From a virus: a DNA stretch of 34,320 nt. Position numbers and translations under genes: made by a program. Positions 2,103-16,316 of the stretch are shown here, piece after piece. The stretch covers positions 1 to 34,320 of the IMG/VR virus record IMGVR_UViG_3300046507_000353; one strand, written 5' to 3'. The notes under the pieces were generated by a model. It ran no database searches. It saw nothing but the letters and a program-made list of their open reading frames with translations, and was not told where the DNA came from. The stretch's first letter is position 1, and each line of letters opens with the position of its first letter.

Positions 2103-2672
2103 ATGACTGAATTTGCCGACCTCTCCCGCCGCCTTGAAAGCCTGATCCGCACCGGAACCATTTCCGAAGTGCGGCACAAGCCTCTGCGCGTGCGTGTTGC
2201 TTCCGGTGGTCTGACATCGAATTGGCTCGCCTGCATCACGCTCAGAGCTGGTAGCACTCGGGATTGGGATCCTCCAACCGCGAACGAGCAATGCGTGATT
2301 TTCAGCCCGAGCGGTGATCCGGCGTTGGGCCTCGTATTGGTAGGCCTGAACTCGGACAGTATCCCCGCGCCGAGCGAAAGCCCGGATGAATGCCTGCGGG
2401 TTTATCCCGACGGCGCGCAGATCCTCTACAACCACAAAACCGGTGCGTTAACGGTCAGCGGGATCAAAACGGCGCTGCTCCAAGCTGCCGAGAAGTGCGT
2501 CATTGATTGCCCCAAAGTGGAGACGACCGGCGACCTGCTGGTCAAGGGCAAGCTCACCGTTGAGAAGGGTGCTGACATCACCGGTGACGTCATTCATCAG
2601 GGTGGAAACATGATCTCTAACGGCATCGTCGTCCACACCCACAAACACCCAGGCACCGGAGGCCCGATATGA
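2103..2672 (+). CDS. V: Baseplate spike protein V
   Basis: This 189-aa protein is the P2 gpV-type spike that punctures the outer membrane at infection. The N-terminal part (1-100) fits the OB-fold region, and the C-terminal half has repeated short strands (VKGKLTVEKGADITGDVIHQGG) of the trimeric beta-helix. The tip carries H178-T-H180 (HTHKH), matching the HxH iron-binding apex of gpV. No Shine-Dalgarno is visible before ATG 2103. It overlaps W by 4 bases. Confidence 0.93.
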   Translation: MTEFADLSRRLESLIRTGTISEVRHKPLRVRVASGGLTSNWLACITLRAGSTRDWDPPTANEQCVIFSPSGDPALGLVLVGLNSDSIPAPSESPDECLRVYPDGAQILYNHKTGALTVSGIKTALLQAAEKCVIDCPKVETTGDLLVKGKLTVEKGADITGDVIHQGGNMISNGIVVHTHKHPGTGGPI

Positions 2673-3034
2673 ATTACTCGGGCATGAATGCCAATAACGG
2701 TGAGGAGCTGACCGATCTCGACAGCATCCGTCAATCGTGCAAGGACATCTTCACTACCCCGATCGGCTCGCGGGTTATGCGCCGTGAGTATGGCTCGCTG
2801 ATTCCCGAGCTGATCGACCAGCCCATGAACGCATCACTGCCCCTTCGCATCAGTGCGGCGGGTGTGATGGCGTTGCTTCGTTGGGAGCCGCGCATTCGTC
2901 TAAAAGGATTCCTCGTGACCACCGGTTCAACCCCCGGCTCGCTGATCGCCGAACTGGATGCGACCCGCGCTGATGGGCCTCAGTCCGGTTCCCGCGTTCA
3001 ACTATCAGTTCCGATCAAGGGGACAAGCGCATGA
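2669..3034 (+). CDS. W: Baseplate wedge protein W (gp25-like)
   Basis: A 121-aa protein with the gp25/GPW lysozyme-like fold signature: SIRQSCKDIFTTPIGSRVMR followed by REYGSLIPELIDQP and the ALLRWEPRI segment. In T4 and P2 this protein sits in the baseplate wedge and helps start sheath polymerisation. It is coupled to V and J by 4-base overlaps. Length and motif order fit the family well. Confidence 0.93.
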   Translation: MNYSGMNANNGEELTDLDSIRQSCKDIFTTPIGSRVMRREYGSLIPELIDQPMNASLPLRISAAGVMALLRWEPRIRLKGFLVTTGSTPGSLIAELDATRADGPQSGSRVQLSVPIKGTSA

Positions 3035-3942
3035 GCGGCATGATTGATTTATCGCAACTCCCCGAGCCGAGCGTTATTGAAGTAGTTAGCTTCGAGTTGA
3101 TTCTGGCCGAGCGAAAAGAACGTTTCATCAGCCTCAATCCGGTCGAGAAACAAGACGCCATCCGAGCGACCCTTGAGCTTGAGTCAGAGCCCATTACCAA
3201 GTTGCTGCAGGAAAATGCCTACCGCGAAATGTTGCTAAGGCAGCGGGTCAATGAGGCCGCTCTTGCAGTAATGCTCGCTTACGCCGTTGACGGAGACCTC
3301 GATCAGATCGCTGCAAACTTTCACCTTGAACGATTGGTGCTCGATAAAGGCGATCCGCTGGCAGTACCTCCAATTCCGCCCACGATGGAAAGCCACGACG
3401 ATCTGCGTGCCCGATGCCAAATGGCATTCGAAGGGCTATCAGTGGCTGGCCCTCGGGGCGCATACATCTACCACGCACTCTCGGCTGATGGCCGTGTATC
3501 GGACGTAAGCGCTGAAAGCCCTGCCCCCTGTGAAGTGCTTGTAAGCGTGCTCTCGCGTGAAGGTAAAGGCATCGCATCCCCTGAGTTGCTTGCCAAAGTC
3601 AGCGCCGCCCTCAATGACGACGACATTCGCCCGCTTGGCGATCGGCTGACGGTTCAGTCCGTCGAGGTCATCGAGTACGCCGTCGAAGCCGTCTTGTATT
3701 ACTACCCTGGCCCCGAAAGTGAGCCAATCCGGGAGGCCGCTGAAAAGTCGCTTCAGAAGTACATCGGTAACCAGCGCCGCATCGGGCGCGACATTCGAAG
3801 ATCCGCGCTTTACGCAGCGCTTCATGTGGAAGGCGTTCAGCGAGTAGAGCTATTGCATCCCGCCTCGGACATCGTCCTGAACAAGCAGCAGGCGGGGTTC
3901 TGCACTGGGTACGAGCTTTCGGTAGGCGGTTCGGATGAGTAA
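3031..3942 (+). CDS. J: Baseplate assembly protein J
   Basis: A 303-aa protein matching P2 gpJ, a baseplate wedge protein at the tail edge. Recognisable parts are the N-terminal IDLSQLPEPSVIEVVSFE, the central AYAVDGDLDQIAANFHLERL, and the C-terminal RRIGRDIRRSALYAALHVEG. It overlaps W at the start and I at the end (8 bases), in the conserved V-W-J-I-H-G order. Confidence 0.93.
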   Translation: MSGMIDLSQLPEPSVIEVVSFELILAERKERFISLNPVEKQDAIRATLELESEPITKLLQENAYREMLLRQRVNEAALAVMLAYAVDGDLDQIAANFHLERLVLDKGDPLAVPPIPPTMESHDDLRARCQMAFEGLSVAGPRGAYIYHALSADGRVSDVSAESPAPCEVLVSVLSREGKGIASPELLAKVSAALNDDDIRPLGDRLTVQSVEVIEYAVEAVLYYYPGPESEPIREAAEKSLQKYIGNQRRIGRDIRRSALYAALHVEGVQRVELLHPASDIVLNKQQAGFCTGYELSVGGSDE

Positions 3943-4549
3943 GTCCCTGCTCCCCAGCGGTTCAACACCACTTGAGCGTGCCGCGACAGAAGCAATGGCA
4001 GAAGCGGTGGCCCTCAAGGTTCCTCTGCGCGACCTGTGGAATCCCGATCGCTGCCCTCTCTCGCTACTTCCCTACCTTGCCTGGGCGCTCTCCGTTGATC
4101 GCTGGGATCAGAGCTGGTCAGAGAAAACAAAACGCTCGGTGATAAAGGCCTCGTTCTTCGTACACAAGCGCAAGGGCACCATCAACGCCATCCGTCGCGC
4201 AGTCGAACCACTCGGCTACCTCATTGAATTGGTCGAGTGGTGGCAGACAGCACCCATGGGTACGCCGGGCACCTTCGCATTGAAGCTCGGCGTCCTAGAA
4301 ACAGGCATTACGGAGGAAATGTATCTAGAGGTAGAGCGCCTCATCGACGACGCCAAGCCCGTCAGTCGGCACCTGACTGGATTGGCAATCAGTCTCGAAA
4401 CTCAGGGCAATTTGAATGTCGCGGTAAGCCTTTACGACGGCGACGTCATCGACATTTACCCGCCAGAAATGCGTGACATCGACGTCACCGGAACATTCGG
4501 TGTAGTCGGGCGCGAACACTCCATAGACACTTTGGACATTTATTCATGA
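3935..4549 (+). CDS. I: Tail protein I
   Basis: A 204-aa P2 gpI-type baseplate protein. The N-terminal region SLLPSGSTPLERAATEAMAE and the block PYLAWALSVDRWDQSWSE are typical of the family, as is the KRKGTINAIRRAVEPLGY segment. It occupies the baseplate periphery with gpJ and precedes the tail-fibre gene. The stop overlaps the H start (ATGA at 4546-4549). Confidence 0.93.
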   Translation: MSKSLLPSGSTPLERAATEAMAEAVALKVPLRDLWNPDRCPLSLLPYLAWALSVDRWDQSWSEKTKRSVIKASFFVHKRKGTINAIRRAVEPLGYLIELVEWWQTAPMGTPGTFALKLGVLETGITEEMYLEVERLIDDAKPVSRHLTGLAISLETQGNLNVAVSLYDGDVIDIYPPEMRDIDVTGTFGVVGREHSIDTLDIYS

Positions 4550-6504
4550 TTGATGCGGACTCTAAGTTTTTCGCGATCCTGACGGACGTGGGAGCGGCCA
4601 AGCTGGCGAATGCCAATGTACTTGGCGTTCCGTGGAACATTACCGAGATGGGCCTGGGCGACGCCAATAACACCGATCCGCAACCCAGCTCCAAACAAAC
4701 CAAGCTGATCAACGAATGGCGACGCCGTCCGCTGAATCAGCTCATCATCGACCCGGTCAACGCGGCGGTCATCATTGCCGAGCAAGTGATCCCTGCTGAT
4801 GAGGGCGGGCACTGGATTCGTGAAGTCGGACTTTATGATGCGGACGGCGATCTGGTGGCGGTGGCGAACTGTGCGCCAAGCTTCAAGCCGATTCTGTCGC
4901 AAGGTTCCGGTCGCACGCAGGTTGTGCGTATGAACTTGATTGTATCGAGTGCCGCGAACATCAGCCTCAAGATCGATCCAGCGGTCGTACTTGCGACCCG
5001 CGACTACGTCGATTCGCGCATCCTGGAGGAGCTGAGCAAGCTCGACATCAAGCAGTCGGTGCGTGCGGCCACCACGGCCAATATCAATCTGGTCGGGTTG
5101 CAGGTGGTGGACGGCGTTTCGCTGAACGCGGGCGATCGCGTTCTGGTGAAGAACCAGACGGCGGCGAAGGATAACGGCCCCTATGTGGTGGCGGTGGGTG
5201 CCTGGGTTCGTGCCAAGGATGCTGACAACAACACGAAAGTTACGCCCAACCTGACGGTGGCGGTCGAGGTCGGCGCGACGCAGGCCGACACGATTTGGCA
5301 GCTGGTGACGGATGGCCCTATTGTCGTGGGCGCCACCGCTCTGACGTTCAAGGACATCACCGACGGCCTTGCCCGATTGTTCTCGCCGAGCTTTGCCGGT
5401 AACCCGACGGCCCCGACACCGGCGCGGTTCGATATCAGTAAGTCGGTAGCAACGACTGAGCATGTGAAGCAGCGCGGTGTCGAGTTCTCGGGCTTTACCA
5501 CGAGCAATGCGAGTCTGGTGATGTCGGCTTCGCATGTCGGCGGGCTTCACAGTTTCTCCGACGCTGCGCAGCTCACGGCGACCTTGCCTCCCACCGCAGG
5601 TATCGCGCAGGCGGCCACTATCACGGTGGCCTGCGCTGGTCCGGGTGGGCTGAAGGTCATAGGGTCGGGTACTGATGTGGTTTATACCTCGACCGGTGTT
5701 GCTGGGCCGTTGGTCTTGGCGCTAGGCGACACCGCCGAATTCATCCGCCTGCAGGATCAGTGGCGGTTGATCGGCGGCACGGTCGCCCTGCGTTTTGCAG
5801 GAACCCTCAGCGGCTCTCACTTCGTCACGCAGCCGCAGTTCGATAGCGGCAAGTCGCTAGCCACTACGGAGTTTGTGCAGCGGGGTCAGGGAAATTTCGC
5901 AGGCCGCGTGGATATCCTGGCTTTGCCCGCGACACTGAATATCTCGTCAGCCGGGAATCGTATCGTAATCAACGCCGCAGGGACGCTTACCCTGCCGCCT
6001 ATTAGTTCTGTGCCAACCGGAACCAACTTCTATCTCTACAACGCGTTCTCCGGTGTGATTACCATTGTTCGGCAAGGTACAGATGTAATTTCCTCATTCA
6101 ACAATGGATCGCTTGCATCGGTGACTCTCCAGTCCGCCTCTAACATCGTTATTACGGCAGGTAACGGGCAATGGGTCGTTGAGAACGGTGTGTCTGCCCT
6201 GAAATATGCGAACGAGTTCGCCAGCCTCTGGGCGGGCAATGGCTACCAGCGATTGCCCTCGGGAGCGATCGAGCAGTGGGGTACAGGCGTTACGGATGCG
6301 AACGGATACGTTTACGTCACATTCCCTATCCCGTTCCCCAATGCGCCGCGAAACATCGCACTGACGCACGTCGGCTCGCAGTGTTTGATGCACGCGCTTA
6401 TGGGGGCGGGGTTGGGTGCATCCGGTTGCACGTTGCGCGTGCAAAATTCGGCGAATGCGTCCCAGGCGGGTTGGACGGTTCACTGGCGGGCTATAGGGAA
6501 CTAA
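4546..6504 (+). CDS. H: Tail fibre protein H
   Basis: A 652-aa receptor-binding fibre. Residues 1-160 form the conserved tail-collar/DUF3751-type attachment region (TDVGAAKLANANVLGVPWNITEMGLGD). The middle has two repeats ending in KSVATTEHVKQRG and KSLATTEFVQRGQ (nucleotides about 5395-5475 and 5800-5885). The C-terminal ~95 residues start GNGYQRLPSGAIEQWG, the tip-type domain also seen in R-pyocin fibres. The tip likely sets host range. The fibre is probably trimeric and needs the chaperone encoded next. Confidence 0.9.
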   Translation: MIDADSKFFAILTDVGAAKLANANVLGVPWNITEMGLGDANNTDPQPSSKQTKLINEWRRRPLNQLIIDPVNAAVIIAEQVIPADEGGHWIREVGLYDADGDLVAVANCAPSFKPILSQGSGRTQVVRMNLIVSSAANISLKIDPAVVLATRDYVDSRILEELSKLDIKQSVRAATTANINLVGLQVVDGVSLNAGDRVLVKNQTAAKDNGPYVVAVGAWVRAKDADNNTKVTPNLTVAVEVGATQADTIWQLVTDGPIVVGATALTFKDITDGLARLFSPSFAGNPTAPTPARFDISKSVATTEHVKQRGVEFSGFTTSNASLVMSASHVGGLHSFSDAAQLTATLPPTAGIAQAATITVACAGPGGLKVIGSGTDVVYTSTGVAGPLVLALGDTAEFIRLQDQWRLIGGTVALRFAGTLSGSHFVTQPQFDSGKSLATTEFVQRGQGNFAGRVDILALPATLNISSAGNRIVINAAGTLTLPPISSVPTGTNFYLYNAFSGVITIVRQGTDVISSFNNGSLASVTLQSASNIVITAGNGQWVVENGVSALKYANEFASLWAGNGYQRLPSGAIEQWGTGVTDANGYVYVTFPIPFPNAPRNIALTHVGSQCLMHALMGAGLGASGCTLRVQNSANASQAGWTVHWRAIGN

Positions 6505-6506
6505 AA

Positions 6507-6953
6507 ATGAACAAAATCGTGTTTTTCAGTCCGTCCACGTGTGGGGCTTATGTTCCCGAGATCCATGGCGCAGACATGCCCGCGGACGTGGTCGAAGTGG
6601 CTGCAAGTGTTTGGCAATCGCTGCTCGATGAGTTGTCGATCAGCCCAAAAAAAATGTCGTCCCGGCCCGATGGTTATCCGGTGCTGATTGATCCGCCGCC
6701 ACTCGACGCCGAGGCGCTTGCCGTTGCTGAGCGTGCTTGGCGCGACGCGCAACTGGCCCTGACTGATCCGTTGGTGTCCCGGCACCGCGACGAGATCGAG
6801 GAGGGTGGCGAAACTTCGCTCACGGTTGACCAGTACGCGGAATTGCAGGCCTACCGCCGACAGTTGCGTGATTGGCCGCTAGGGTCGCAATTCCCTCTCG
6901 CGGAATATCGACCGGTCGCACCGACCTGGCTGACAGTAACAACCCAAAACTAA
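6507..6953 (+). CDS. G: Tail fibre assembly protein G
   Basis: A 148-aa protein immediately after the fibre gene. Features typical of fibre chaperones are the N-terminal KIVFFSPSTCGAYVPEIHG, a central hydrophilic RPDGYPVLIDPPPLDAEAL, a Trp/Arg helix, and the C-terminal YRRQLRDWPLG. Such proteins fold or trimerise the C-terminal part of the cognate fibre. The ATG at 6507 follows the H stop by 2 bases; the long upstream extension lies inside H. A strong hairpin follows the gene. Confidence 0.88.
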   Translation: MNKIVFFSPSTCGAYVPEIHGADMPADVVEVAASVWQSLLDELSISPKKMSSRPDGYPVLIDPPPLDAEALAVAERAWRDAQLALTDPLVSRHRDEIEEGGETSLTVDQYAELQAYRRQLRDWPLGSQFPLAEYRPVAPTWLTVTTQN

Positions 6954-6959
6954 GAGACG

Positions 6960-6995
6960 GCGGCTGGACGGATGCGCGAACACCCGTCCAGCCGC
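6960..6995 (+). terminator. Hairpin after the V-G operon
   Basis: Arms GCGGCTGGACGG and CCGTCCAGCCGC (12 bp, perfect) are separated by a 12-base loop, 7 bases after the G stop. There is no long T run, so termination would be weak or Rho-assisted. It separates the V operon from com-dam. Confidence 0.7.
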
Positions 6996-7096
6996 TTCAA
7001 CACCACTGATCAGACCAGTGAGCCAAAGCCGAGGCCGCCTGCCTGACGTCAAGGCGCGGGCACCTTAGCACGATCGCATAAAGGGCTCACCTCAAC

Positions 7097-7318
7097 ATGG
7101 AAGACATTCGCTGCGGCAATTGCGCCCGCAAGCTAGCCTCAGGCCGTTATATCGAACTCAACATCAAGTGCCCGCGTTGCGGCACCTTGAATTCACTGAG
7201 GGCCACGAGCCCCGCACAAGAGCGCCCGCGAGCGTCAACTGAAAGGCAAGAACTATGCACGCGGCAACTCCCATCATCCCGTGGATCGGTGGCAAACGGC
7301 GCCTCGCCGACCGGCTGA
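7097..7318 (+). CDS. com: Com-like zinc-finger translational activator
   Basis: A 73-aa protein whose first 30 residues match phage Mu Com: IRCGNCARKL then IKCPRCGTLN, with C6-x2-C9 and C25-x2-C28 for zinc. In Mu, Com binds the mom messenger and opens its ribosome site, allowing DNA modification late in infection. Here the neighbour is a Dam-type methylase, not Mom, and com overlaps its start by 64 bases. The analogous role in activating dam translation is an inference from that arrangement. The C-terminal tail is low-complexity and Ser/Arg-rich. Confidence 0.85.
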   Translation: MEDIRCGNCARKLASGRYIELNIKCPRCGTLNSLRATSPAQERPRASTERQELCTRQLPSSRGSVANGASPTG

Positions 7319-8052
7319 TCCCACTCTTTCCTCCGCACGAGTGTTACGTCGAAGTCTTTGCCGGTGGGGGCGCACTGTTTTTCCTGCGCCCGATGCCAGC
7401 TCAGACCGAGGTGTTGAACGACATCAACGGCGATCTGGTGAACCTGTACAGGGTGGTGCAGCACCACCTCGAAGAATTCGTTCGCCAGTTCAAATGGGCG
7501 CTCAGCAGCCGCCAGATTTTCAAATGGCAGCAGATGACCAACGTTGAAACGCTCACAGACATCCAGCGTGCCGCTCGCTTCTTCTACCTGCAGCAGCACG
7601 CCTTCGGCGGGAAGGTCAGCGGGCAGACGTTCGGCACGGCAACCACCGGCCCGGCAATCAACCTGTGTCGCATCGAAGAGAACCTGAGCGCCGCGCATCT
7701 GCGGCTATCGGGCACCTACGTCGAGAACCTGCAATGGCAGGAAGTCATGCGCCGCTACGATCGCCCTCACACGTTCTTCTACTGCGACCCACCGTACTGG
7801 GAGACGGAAGGCTACGGCGTTGACTTCGGCTTCGAAAACTATCTCGCCCTGGCAAAGTTCATGCGCGAGTGCAAAGGGAAGGTAATGGTCTCGATCAACG
7901 ATCACCCGGACATCCGTGAAGCGTTCGCGGGCTTCCACATGGAAGGGCTCGATATCAAGTATTCGGTGGACAACTTACGGGGTGATGCCAAGACCAGCCG
8001 CGAGCTGGTGATCATGAACTGGGAACCGGAGGTCTTTGGCGGGCTTTTCTAG
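7255..8052 (+). CDS. Dam-type DNA adenine-N6 methyltransferase
   Basis: A 265-aa D12-class methylase. Motif X/N-terminus is TPIIPWIGGKRRLA, the SAM-binding motif is FAGGGA (35-40), and the catalytic motif is DPPY (178-181), with NDINGDLVNLY as the acidic SAM-contact region. Length and motif order match Dam-like enzymes, but GATC specificity is assumed and not shown. Phage methylases commonly protect DNA from host restriction. It lies between G and FI, a common place for accessory genes in P2-like phages, and overlaps com. Confidence 0.9.
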   Translation: MHAATPIIPWIGGKRRLADRLIPLFPPHECYVEVFAGGGALFFLRPMPAQTEVLNDINGDLVNLYRVVQHHLEEFVRQFKWALSSRQIFKWQQMTNVETLTDIQRAARFFYLQQHAFGGKVSGQTFGTATTGPAINLCRIEENLSAAHLRLSGTYVENLQWQEVMRRYDRPHTFFYCDPPYWETEGYGVDFGFENYLALAKFMRECKGKVMVSINDHPDIREAFAGFHMEGLDIKYSVDNLRGDAKTSRELVIMNWEPEVFGGLF

Positions 8053-13562: not shown

Positions 13563-14683
13563 TCGCTCCGGCTCAAGAAAACCGCCAGTACTCTCGGGAA
13601 GAAATTCACCCGACACCTGACTACCGCGTTGCAATCGTCGGTGGGAAAGACATTACCAGCACGCTGCAAGGCCGATTGGAATCCTTGACCCTGACTGACA
13701 ACAGGGGGTTTGATGCCGACCAGCTGGATATCACCTTGGACGACAGCGACGGCATGCTCGACCTGCCGCCTCGCGGGGCAAAACTTTCCCTCGCGCTGGG
13801 TTGGAAACATGAAGGACTGATCGACAAAGGCACCTACACCGTCGATGAAGTCGAACACAGCGGGAGTCCTGACAAGCTGATCATCAGGGCGAGAAGCGCA
13901 GATCTTCGGGCGGGCCTGACAACAAAACGCGAGCGTAGCTTTCACGGCAAGAAACTGGCGGACATTGTGTTGGCGATCGCCAGTCAGAATCGACTCACCG
14001 CAGAGATCGCCAAGCAGCTTGCTGACGAGGTGGTAGACCATATCGACCAGACGAGTGAGTCTGACGCCAATCTGCTCACGCGCCTTGCCGAACAGTTCGA
14101 TGCGATCGCCACGGTGAAACATGACCGCCTGATGTTCATCAAGGCAGGTGAGGCCAAAAGCGCCAGTGGACTGCCGCTCGGTGTCGTCACGATCGTCCGA
14201 TCGAAGGGCGATCAGCACCGTTTCACAGTTGCGGATGGGAACAACTTCACCGCCGTGAAGGCCTATTGGCAAAACACCGGGTCAGCCAAAAAAGGCGAAG
14301 TGCTGGTCGATGCCAAGACGGTCATCAAGAAGGTGAAGTCAGGGAAGTCGGGGAAACGCGAAAAGCTCGGCGTTGAAAGGACTGACCCCATCAAGCCGAG
14401 CGCTGAAAACACTAAAGTTCTGCGGCACACCTACGCCAGTGAAGTTACCGCGATTCGGGGAGCCAAGGCTGCGTTCGACAAGCTACAGCGTGGTGTTGCC
14501 TCGTTCAGCATCACCCTGGCCCATGGCCGCGCCGACCTGTTCCCCGAGCTGCCCGCGATCGTCAGCGGCTGGAAGCCAACTATTGACGGCACTGACTGGA
14601 TCATCAGCCAAGTATCTCACTCGCTGTCAGATAGCGGCTTTACTACTCAGCTCGACCTTGAGCTAAAAATCGACACCGACTAA
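13559..14683 (+). CDS. D: Tail hub protein D
   Basis: A 374-aa late control/hub protein of the gpD family, structurally equivalent to T4 gp27. Typical parts are TPDYRVAIVGGKDITSTLQG, the DQLDITLDDSDGMLDLPPRG block, and the C-terminal DWIISQVSHSLSDSGFTTQL. GTG at 13559 overlaps the U stop. It is the last gene of the F operon and converges with the minus-strand gene at 14680, the two stop codons overlapping with no visible terminator. Confidence 0.93.
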   Translation: MIAPAQENRQYSREEIHPTPDYRVAIVGGKDITSTLQGRLESLTLTDNRGFDADQLDITLDDSDGMLDLPPRGAKLSLALGWKHEGLIDKGTYTVDEVEHSGSPDKLIIRARSADLRAGLTTKRERSFHGKKLADIVLAIASQNRLTAEIAKQLADEVVDHIDQTSESDANLLTRLAEQFDAIATVKHDRLMFIKAGEAKSASGLPLGVVTIVRSKGDQHRFTVADGNNFTAVKAYWQNTGSAKKGEVLVDAKTVIKKVKSGKSGKREKLGVERTDPIKPSAENTKVLRHTYASEVTAIRGAKAAFDKLQRGVASFSITLAHGRADLFPELPAIVSGWKPTIDGTDWIISQVSHSLSDSGFTTQLDLELKIDTD

Positions 14684-15081
14684 TTACCCTGCGCGCTCCA
14701 GAGGCTGGTGTGTTCCGGCAAGAACTGTTGATTGACCTCATCCATGGTCAGCTTGCCGATCGCGTTGCACTCTGCCGCACCGCCCGCAAACACACGGCCC
14801 TGCGCGCCGAATGAGTTCACAACCTCGATCCGTTGAAAGTCGGTCTTGCCCCACGAGCCGGGCTCAAGAATCAGGCTCGTGCATACGCTGTTCACCACCG
14901 TGGCGTAGATGTCCTCGGTGACACGCGGTCGGTTCATGTCCACGCGTAACGCATCGCCGGTAAGCTCGACGGCTTTGATATCAAGCGGCTTGAGCTGCTT
15001 GGCAATGCTCGATGGAACGGGCTCCGCATGCGCAATGTTGAACGATGCGAGTAGCAGCAGGGTAAGGCCGGTTCTTTTCAC
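14680..15081 (-). CDS. Secreted periplasmic protein of the lysogeny operon, unknown function
   Basis: A 133-aa protein with a clear Sec signal peptide (MKRTGLTLLLLASFNIAHA, likely cut after AHA). The mature part (~114 residues) has two Cys (about 88 and 105), which could form a disulfide. I do not recognise a family. It is the third gene on the minus strand after the repressor, so it is probably expressed in the lysogen. Lysogenic conversion or superinfection exclusion is a reasonable guess from topology and position only. Confidence 0.75.
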   Translation of the reverse strand: MKRTGLTLLLLASFNIAHAEPVPSSIAKQLKPLDIKAVELTGDALRVDMNRPRVTEDIYATVVNSVCTSLILEPGSWGKTDFQRIEVVNSFGAQGRVFAGGAAECNAIGKLTMDEVNQQFLPEHTSLWSAQGN

Positions 15082-15102: not shown

Positions 15103-15759
15103 TCAGGCGCTCTCTGATGTTGGAACGGCCCATTCGGGGCCGTCGTCTGTTGTGCGCTGACAAACGCGCTTGAAGCCTTCCATCTTCAGCACGCTTCCGA
15201 CCGAGAAGGCCTTGCCGTTGAACTGACATACGGTCGGATCCTGAGCAAACCCGAGGCCAGCCAGCCACGCGCCGCAAAGCAGCGCGCCGGCTAGACCGAT
15301 GGCGCAGGCAAGTTGTCGATTCGAAATGATGATGGTGTTGCGGCGTAAAGATCCGCCAGCAGATGGCGACGGCTCGTTTGATGAGCCTGGGTCACCCGTG
15401 AGCGCAAAGGGATGCGCAAAAGACGAAGACTGAGGCACTTTGAGAGGATCCTTGACCCAGCGATCCAGTAGAGCCATCACCTCGTGAAAGCTGTCACGTG
15501 GCAGCTCACCAAGTTTATCGACGCCGAAGTCAGTGAGAATCACTTTGTAAACGTCGAATCGTTCGAGGCCGGTGGCACTCAGAACTTCCCCTACTCGGTA
15601 GGCGATCGCCTTACGTTGCAGGTCGGTGATAGCCCTATCTGTATTTGAACCGAATGACAGATTGAAAACATTGCTCAACTGCGGGTTGTTGCTGCCCTCA
15701 TTGACCGTACCGCCGGTAATGAGCTGGGCAACATCCCCAACTTTGTAACTTTCCCCCAT
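15103..15759 (-). CDS. Single-pass membrane protein with repressor-shared N-terminal motif
   Basis: A 218-aa protein, starting at ATG 15759 with GGTGG upstream (ATG 15777 is an alternative). Residues 8-20, GDVAQLITGGTVN, nearly duplicate repressor residues 121-133. Residues ~38-95 resemble an ORF6C-like helical region (weak). A Ser/Pro-rich linker (110-140) precedes one membrane segment (~154-173, LACAIGLAGALLCGAWLAGL) and a short C-terminal domain with two Cys. Likely topology is N-terminus in the cytoplasm and C-terminus in the periplasm. It lies between the repressor and secreted-protein genes. Function unknown. Confidence 0.75.
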   Translation of the reverse strand: MGESYKVGDVAQLITGGTVNEGSNNPQLSNVFNLSFGSNTDRAITDLQRKAIAYRVGEVLSATGLERFDVYKVILTDFGVDKLGELPRDSFHEVMALLDRWVKDPLKVPQSSSFAHPFALTGDPGSSNEPSPSAGGSLRRNTIIISNRQLACAIGLAGALLCGAWLAGLGFAQDPTVCQFNGKAFSVGSVLKMEGFKRVCQRTTDDGPEWAVPTSESA

Positions 15760-15789
15760 GATCCACCGCACCCACATCCATAATGGCTT

Positions 15790-15810
15790 TCCGCCATTAT
15801 ACTTGGCGGA
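15790..15810 (-). promoter_or_regulatory. Palindrome enclosing a TATAAT box upstream of the membrane-protein gene
   Basis: Arms TCCGCCA/TGGCGGA are separated by 7 bases. On the minus strand the loop and right arm contain a perfect TATAAT, about 35 bases upstream of the 15759 start codon. No good -35 is seen at 17 bases. This could be an internal promoter under operator control. A stem-loop between repressor and next gene is the alternative. Confidence 0.5.
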
Positions 15811-15823
15811 CGGCTAATCCTTC

Positions 15824-16267
15824 CTAGCCTTTCGTCCTCTTGCCAGTGCTGATACGCGCACCGGTTTGATTCACTGCCCCGCCGCTGATGATCTGGGCAA
15901 CGTCGCCCATGCTGAACTTCTGCGTGGGTTGTGCTTCTGGAGCGTTGTAACCGGCGATCATCCCAAGAACGCCCGAGCGGCCTTTCGAGTCGAGTTCTCG
16001 GTATCCACCCAGAACCAGCATCTCGTCCGGGGCCAAATGCCCACCGGACAGCTCGCCAGTGACGATATAAAGCACATCGGCACCCTGGCGCCCTACCGCT
16101 TCGAGAAAGCCGAGCTTCGGCTCAGTCTTGCCCGCCTCGTAATCACAGTAAGTACGAAAAGCAACGCCGCCACGCTTGGCCATCTCCGTTTGGGTGAGGC
16201 CAAGACGAACGCGTTCCTGCGACAACCGATCGTTGTATTGCAGTTTTTCGCAAAGATCGTTTGACAT
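15824..16267 (-). CDS. Phage repressor (HTH, no peptidase domain)
   Basis: A 147-aa XRE-type repressor. The helix-turn-helix is residues ~14-48 (RLSQERVRLGLTQTEMAKRG then GVAFRTYCDYEAGKTEP). The C-terminal 30 residues carry GDVAQIISGGAVN. It lacks a LexA/S24 self-cleavage domain, so RecA-driven cleavage is unlikely. It is divergent from the early genes, and three TATTGCAG operators cover the intergenic region and its own first codons. Start ATG at 16267 with CAGGAA upstream. It is the functional equivalent of P2 C or 186 CI. Confidence 0.87.
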   Translation of the reverse strand: MSNDLCEKLQYNDRLSQERVRLGLTQTEMAKRGGVAFRTYCDYEAGKTEPKLGFLEAVGRQGADVLYIVTGELSGGHLAPDEMLVLGGYRELDSKGRSGVLGMIAGYNAPEAQPTQKFSMGDVAQIISGGAVNQTGARISTGKRTKG

Positions 16268-16316
16268 ATTGCAGATTCCTGCGAATAATTCAGTTGTGTA
16301 TTGCAGATTTACACAA
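16236..16316. promoter_or_regulatory. Immunity region: three operators and the early promoter
   Basis: TATTGCAG occurs at 16236, 16267 and 16299, spaced 31 and 32 bases (three helical turns), all on the same strand with imperfect right halves (GCAA, GCGAAT, ACAAT). The plus-strand early promoter is TTGACA 16261-16266, a 17-base spacer, then AATAAT 16284-16289. The middle operator fills the spacer, so repressor binding should block it. The third operator sits in a larger TTGTGTA/TACACAA inverted repeat (16294-16316). Confidence 0.78.

Follow-up and report, generated by a model that had tools for sequence, protein, structure and literature searches.

Why should the C-terminus of a phage repressor and the N-terminus of the membrane protein encoded next to it carry nearly the same 13 residues? 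The question is raised by IMGVR_UViG_3300046507_000353, a virus record of 34,320 bases with P2-like gene order, which was analysed over its whole length (the window). A tail gene D-like ORF is followed by a minus-strand repressor operon and then by plus-strand Arc-like, CII-like, Ogr and primase genes (Table 1). The repressor has an HTH_3 domain and is located at the divergent early promoter, as is characteristic of Xre/CI-type repressors, and it is homologous to the repressors of Burkholderia phages KS5, AP3 and Carl1 (the KS5 homologue is annotated as a repressor). Pfam searches of its 147 residues returned HTH families only, besides a weak MqsA match, and no S24/LexA-like protease domain was found. 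The C-terminal tail is probably disordered, as AF2 predicts for the homologue L162. The reading frame of the membrane protein (hereafter the partner) has an alternative start at 15777 (ORF 15103-15777, 224 aa); Met7 is the probable start because the relative L013 has no upstream start. The product of the third operon gene carries no tag. In related phages a secreted protein or lipoprotein often comes after the repressor, whether the tag is present or absent.

Table 1. Features of the repressor operon and the facing promoter, in window coordinates.
Feature	Position	Strand	Basis or remark
Xre-type immunity repressor, 147 aa	15824-16267	minus	HTH_3 8.2e-8
Repressor-tail tag, residues 121-133, GDVAQIISGGAVN	15869-15907	minus	sequence comparison
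Membrane partner, 218 aa from Met at 15759	15103-15759	minus	phrog_6521 membrane protein 5.2e-31
Partner N-terminal tag, residues 8-20 of the 218-aa form, GDVAQLITGGTVN	15700-15738	minus	sequence comparison
Partner helical domain, residues 46-103, ORF6C-like / Red-beta C-terminal-domain-like	15451-15624	minus	AF2 pLDDT about 80-92
Partner hydrophobic segment, about residues 150-172, probable transmembrane helix	15244-15312	minus	sequence; AF2 leaves the segment unresolved
Partner C-terminal beta domain with Cys pair, residues 177-211, DUF1496-like	15127-15231	minus	Pfam PF07383 E 8.7e-4 (below cutoff); AF2 strands
Third operon gene, 133 aa, signal peptide (MKRTGLTLLLLASFNIAHA), phrog_3807	14680-15081	minus	kept in L013-L016
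Promoter-like TTGACA-17-AATAAT of divergent early operon, opposite repressor start	16261-16289	plus	11/12 consensus; ~1 such site expected by chance

The repressor and partner genes adjoin on the same strand, and the motif lies in both proteins where a sequence-only reading of this DNA had placed it, with 10 of 13 residues identical. That reading called the other three positions conservative, which is true of I/L and S/T and less so of A/T. The underlying DNA repeat spans 39 nt with 77% identity and a spacing of 169. The pair scores 62 by Smith-Waterman alignment (p about 1e-4 from shuffled sequences) and is the fourth-best among the 7,075 non-overlapping ORF pairs of the window. Because other ORF pairs score as high or higher, the match stands out only through the adjacency of the genes; by itself it is borderline, suggestive only. 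A tblastn search of phages with the window tag gave no match. The reality of the pairing is decided by relatives, since it recurs in many prophages.

In phages KS5, AP3 and Carl1 the two genes lie side by side as in the window, with a related motif at the equivalent places. The AP3 partner (L001:3505-4260) is a tagged membrane protein, yet is recorded as an "alpha/beta hydrolase" in KP966108, a probable misannotation. Searching IMG/VR with the window repressor identified 19 loci: ten have a motif-tailed repressor, all with an adjacent partner, and nine have neither. Membrane-protein scans yielded 69 distinct loci, with a tagged repressor upstream wherever the upstream ORF was usable. Three lineages are prominent, namely the window type, a Burkholderia type with the tags QNFxGAxVGQxVTGDV (repressor) and QKFSGDVGQVAGGDV (partner), and an Enterobacterial/Pseudomonas type with GSGNRVAGRDYNE (repressor) and GxxNRVAGRDFNE (partner). 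A near-full-length Enterobacterial pair is present in 509 of 5,426 complete E. coli genomes. The tagged partner gene of Escherichia phage 520873 (L004:3427-4083) is unannotated and frameshifted, with intact copies in many E. coli genomes. The repressors of the Mu-like Pseudomonas phages B3 and Ps59 end in GDGNRTAGRDFHERKE or a variant of it; the following gene encodes a different, two-helix membrane protein that starts with VTGSNNIVAGRDFIEN or a variant. The repressor tag is absent from the related phages Fc02, Ps56 and JBD67; at the partner position of Fc02 and Ps56 there is a lipoprotein-like gene with no tag, and no tagged neighbour was seen in JBD67.

The tag DNA pattern was scanned against GTDB genomes and IMG/VR, with 26 loci from GTDB (about 3 matches expected by chance, as an estimate). 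Together the scans gave 105 distinct instances: 45 repressor C-termini, 58 N-termini of small neighbours and two internal positions. A tagged partner was found by regex for 97 of them and by inspection for two more. Among repressor C-termini, 41 of 45 were paired by regex and two more on inspection, and 55 of the 58 neighbour N-termini were paired. Unpaired scatter of the motif, which the sequence-only reading had named as evidence against a link, is thus not what the scans show: only 2 of 105 instances were internal, and one of these is a paired N-terminus after start correction. The loose tag pattern occurred in 12 of 2,419 control ORFs at the N-terminal end (0.5%) and in 28 of 2,419 at the C-terminal end (1.2%).

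An unbiased set was assembled by fetching repressors by their core, with the tail kept out of the query, which gave 95 non-redundant loci; in the second core scan two of the six alignment sequences were full-length, and the search patterns and confirming sequence lay within the core. Significant similarity between the repressor tail and the head of the next gene product (p<=0.01) was detected in 34 of the 95 loci, with one expected. Tails scored 31.3 against the head of their own neighbour versus 22.6 +/- 0.75 for permuted partners (0/20,000 permutations, 95 loci); these scores were preferred over regex classes, which undercounted pairs. Tag presence in repressor and neighbour was strongly associated (Fisher 2e-18), although the loci are phylogenetically related, so that counts overstate independence, and the regexes, score cut-offs and hydrophobicity rule are simple. 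The shared motifs of this set are diverse and include GNRVAGRDY, FNGPVGxVTxGDVVN / FHGAVEQVAAGDIKN, NHGQIVEGGLTNH / NHGQIADTIQNH and AIQIG-type sequences. In the Pseudomonas carbonaria locus L162 (L162:4717-6382) the repressor carries two tags in tandem, and after it come two different membrane proteins, both of them tagged. The exceptions are Komp_PAO1_1 (L149/L176) and L157, where the repressor is tagged and the neighbour is not. The tag-like tail of the Komp_PAO1_1 repressor (L176:36468-37613), SFHGPVGQAAQGDI, has a convincing match in no other ORF and is an orphan tag.

Partner bodies belong to several unrelated families of small proteins, and almost all of them contain a hydrophobic segment. 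Past the first 32 residues, partners fall into eight clusters between which similarity is undetectable (E 1e-3), including an Flk/ORF6C-like cluster with a C-terminal helix, a zinc-ribbon with two helices, the B3 type and others. A hydrophobic segment is found in 117 of 121 partners at KD>=1.3 and in 105 at >=1.6, and in 51 and 10 of 117 repressors, respectively. The sole partner cluster without one is a single 103-aa ORF, and the L418 and L439 partners, which have a RHIM tetrad (see below), also have no hydrophobic segment. In the AF2 model of the window partner a disordered N-terminal tail precedes the helical domain, the TM segment is unresolved and the C-terminal beta domain is small. The helical domain resembles the C-terminal domain of Red-beta, a peptide-binding module, at a middling Z of 6.9 (rmsd 2.9, 62 residues), and its relatives match the C-terminal regions of antirepressors and Erf weakly. 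C178 and C200 of the beta domain are invariant, and the Cys-pair domain after the TM segment is conserved in the window and Burkholderia lineages. Basic residues precede the hydrophobic segment and the N-terminus of the window partner is probably cytosolic, which would place the protein in the inner membrane with its tag on the cytosolic side. One ORF6C-type membrane partner (L187:391-1242) has three tag-like copies (residues 7, 176 and 199).

The Enterobacterial (lineage-C) partner matches the Flk model NF007987 over residues 38-173 (3.7e-17) at 62.6 bits, below the curated cutoff of 353 bits, whereas Flk is encoded by a chromosomal flagellar gene and the window partner has no NF007987 match. 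The resemblance of such a partner (L030:3406-4029) to this flagellar regulator suggests that Flk and the phage proteins share ancestry. The inner-membrane anchor of Flk is its last 18 residues (PMC8546590). PADLOC defence models did not match the partners of the window and phage B3, and matched other partners only weakly.

Repressor and partner tags change class together. Among loci whose partner bodies are homologous and whose tag classes differ, the within-locus score exceeded the across-locus score in 189 of 189 locus pairs (53 loci); in L221 and L370, for example, the partner bodies are 57% identical and the tag class differs on both proteins. Where partners were >=93% identical and the repressor HTH domains averaged 32% identity, tails were 80% identical versus a 50% baseline. 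Tails are therefore alike where partners are alike but the HTH has diverged, so that the tag goes with the partner and not with the DNA-binding domain. Tag class can differ within one host, as in B3 and Komp_PAO1_1, both from P. aeruginosa PAO1. Since the two tags are no more than a few hundred bases apart, a single recombination event can exchange them together; this may account mechanically for joint switching, but it leaves unexplained why each donor pair matches. Taken together, sequence comparison places the tag in the C-terminal tail of the repressor and at the N-terminus of the partner, and the two sides nearly always co-occur and switch class jointly.

Several tag classes recall motifs of amyloid signalling. 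The RHIM tetrad is present in the repressor tails of L371, L418, L419 and L439 (4/95, versus 0.35% of control ORF ends) and also in three of their neighbours. Both members of the L418, L439 and L371 pairs have the [IV]Q[IV]G core of RIPK1/RIPK3-type RHIMs, the repressor/partner combinations being AIQIG / AIQIG, AIQIG / AVQVG or AVQIG / AVQVG. The core is missing from the window pair, which has VAQI/VAQL and lacks the tetrad [IV]Q[IVL]G; the tetrad is found in both partners only in a few relatives, and the Pfam RHIM model did not match the six proteins or tails tested. We therefore do not claim RHIM membership for the window tag. AF2 predicted a confident helical core for the natural two-tag repressor L162, with both tags disordered and unpaired, although single-chain AF2 rarely shows like-with-like assemblies. 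Our search of mainly open-access literature found no relevant report on RHIM and prophage repressors or on phage repressors and functional amyloid.

The closest known arrangement is that of the bacterial amyloid signalling sequences (BASS) linking NLR/STAND receptors and Bell proteins: two neighbouring genes encode proteins with similar short motifs, one protein ending and the other beginning with the motif, one of the two is directed to the membrane, and the partner domains are diverse (PMC7889193). The tags described here likewise occur in adjacent-gene products, one copy N-terminal and the other C-terminal, one partner is membrane-directed (the hydrophobic segment being nearly universal), and several classes resemble BASS3/RHIM. 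However, the presumed receptor here is an Xre phage repressor and not an NLR/STAND protein (NB-ARC/TPR being seen only in L172), the motif ends are reversed, with the C-terminus on the repressor and the N-terminus on the membrane protein, and amyloid is putative. An archaeal BASS3-like peptide forms amyloid and is stained by Congo red (PMC8086366). The four best matches of this peptide among 4,795 ORFs were Burkholderia-type repressor tails, a likeness of one lineage and not of the window tag. Its one other match within a long protein is in Halonatronum (L172), in a protein with NB-ARC, TPR and HetE-N-type domains, where the tag lies ahead of the NB-ARC domain; two genes further along, a small protein has a similar motif close to its C-terminus, although both stretches are Asn-rich and caution is required. 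The L172 operon (2271-7445) looks like a receptor-effector defence cluster: it encodes the NB-ARC/TPR protein, whose tag reads GNNNRIAGRDY and which has an AAA ATPase at its C-terminus, an HNH endonuclease-like gene product and the small tagged protein.

We consider it probable (about 0.6) that the window 13-mer exemplifies a widespread homotypic docking tag by which the immunity repressor of temperate phages is coupled to the membrane protein of the adjacent gene. The link between repressor and membrane that the sequence-only reading proposed is favoured by the pairing of the tags, by their joint change of class and by the unrelated membrane partners that have nothing but the tag in common. 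Both genes would be expressed from the lysogenic operon. Lysogens of the B3-like phage Fc02 transcribe the repressor gene together with the ORF that comes after it (PMC9936078), which supports co-expression only by analogy because the Fc02 downstream gene encodes an untagged lipoprotein. The repressor tail would most likely bind the partner head directly, like with like, by stacking of short beta-strands, and the assembly would probably be of the RHIM/BASS amyloid-signalling type.

The same reading had offered a simpler origin, a functionless relic of duplication or a recombination hot spot, in which a short DNA segment was copied between the gene ends. The DNA repeat in the window fits such copying and the two sides are near enough for joint exchange. 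Yet identical tag residues share their codon in 218 of 554 cases versus 215.9 +/- 10.9 expected from codon usage (5 of 10 versus 4.0 predicted in the window pair), which shows no sign of a recent duplication or gene conversion. The codon test rules out such a recent origin; judged by codon choice, the resemblance is maintained at the protein level. Moreover, several of the best-conserved columns of the repressor fall in the tag (G158, A164 and G165 are invariant in 32 sequences), and pairs persist in Pseudomonas, Enterobacterales, Burkholderia and others with differing partner bodies, leaving a functionless relic very improbable. A third factor, such as a host protease adaptor or chaperone, could instead recognise the tag on both proteins without mutual binding, which would explain why two different proteins share a short disordered tag. 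The ligand of a host factor is expected to follow the host and not the locus, but class varies among phages of the same host and still switches jointly within pairs, and we give this explanation little credence. Separate self-assembly, each protein oligomerising with itself through the same recruited element and without cross-talk, is improbable too: a self-complementary tag would suit higher-order assembly of the repressor and clustering of the membrane protein, but independent recruitment predicts neither joint class switching nor the near absence of unpaired cases, and the two-tag repressor of L162 adjoins two partners.

What a docked pair would do is more tentative. The lambda cI-rexA-rexB operon is expressed in the lysogen, with RexA as the sensor and RexB as the component that acts on the membrane. 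The window operon similarly has a repressor followed by a membrane component, but there is no RexA-like gene, the link would be to the repressor itself, and homology to RexA or RexB was not seen. In contrast to lambda CI and LexA, no S24 autocleavage domain was detected in the window repressor, so that induction by RecA-driven self-cleavage is unlikely. By analogy with receptor-Bell pairs or lambda RexA-RexB, the repressor may serve as receptor and the partner as membrane effector, a use that we put forward tentatively. The trigger would be the clustering or freeing of repressor tails (superinfection, an antirepressor or the collapse of lysogeny), upon which the partner would assemble at the membrane and protect the prophage. 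The main competing idea, which we find rather unlikely, is a membrane-anchored antirepressor that, when triggered, captures the repressor through the tag and takes it off its operators, giving SOS-independent induction. It is favoured by a repressor in which the HTH is the only domain found, by the distant relationship of the partner helical domain to C-terminal parts of antirepressors (phrog_245, 2127), by the fact that the features common to partners amount to membrane and tag, and by the conserved Cys-pair domain, which could sense the periplasm. That helical similarity to phage antirepressors (Ant, ORF6C/KilA-type) is weak, however, and the ORF6C-like domain is not specific to antirepressors, being present in Erf and Red-beta-like proteins as well; the window partner has an N-terminal tag and TM helix but no antirepressor N-terminal domain, many partners stop just after the TM helix with no outside part for sensing, and related phages carry partner and tag as accessory elements. 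We lean slightly towards an exclusion effector because the membrane side varies, as BASS effectors do, and the gene is accessory and located where exclusion genes often sit. Whether prophage repressors are receptors of amyloid-type signalosomes, the disordered tail templating a co-expressed membrane effector so that immunity switch and membrane response form one device with the kind of motif used in NLR-Bell signalling, is a further step that we regard as doubtful.

The matching tags suggest a physical connection between the dormancy switch and the cell membrane, comparable to the one that joins tagged immune sensors to membrane effectors. If this is true, a large class of temperate phages would wire the lysogeny repressor to the membrane by interchangeable like-with-like tags, and RecA-independent prophages would gain a missing input or output. 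Amyloid-style signalling would then extend beyond immune receptors to transcription factors, and the specificity of receptor-effector tags would become testable in simple phages such as B3.
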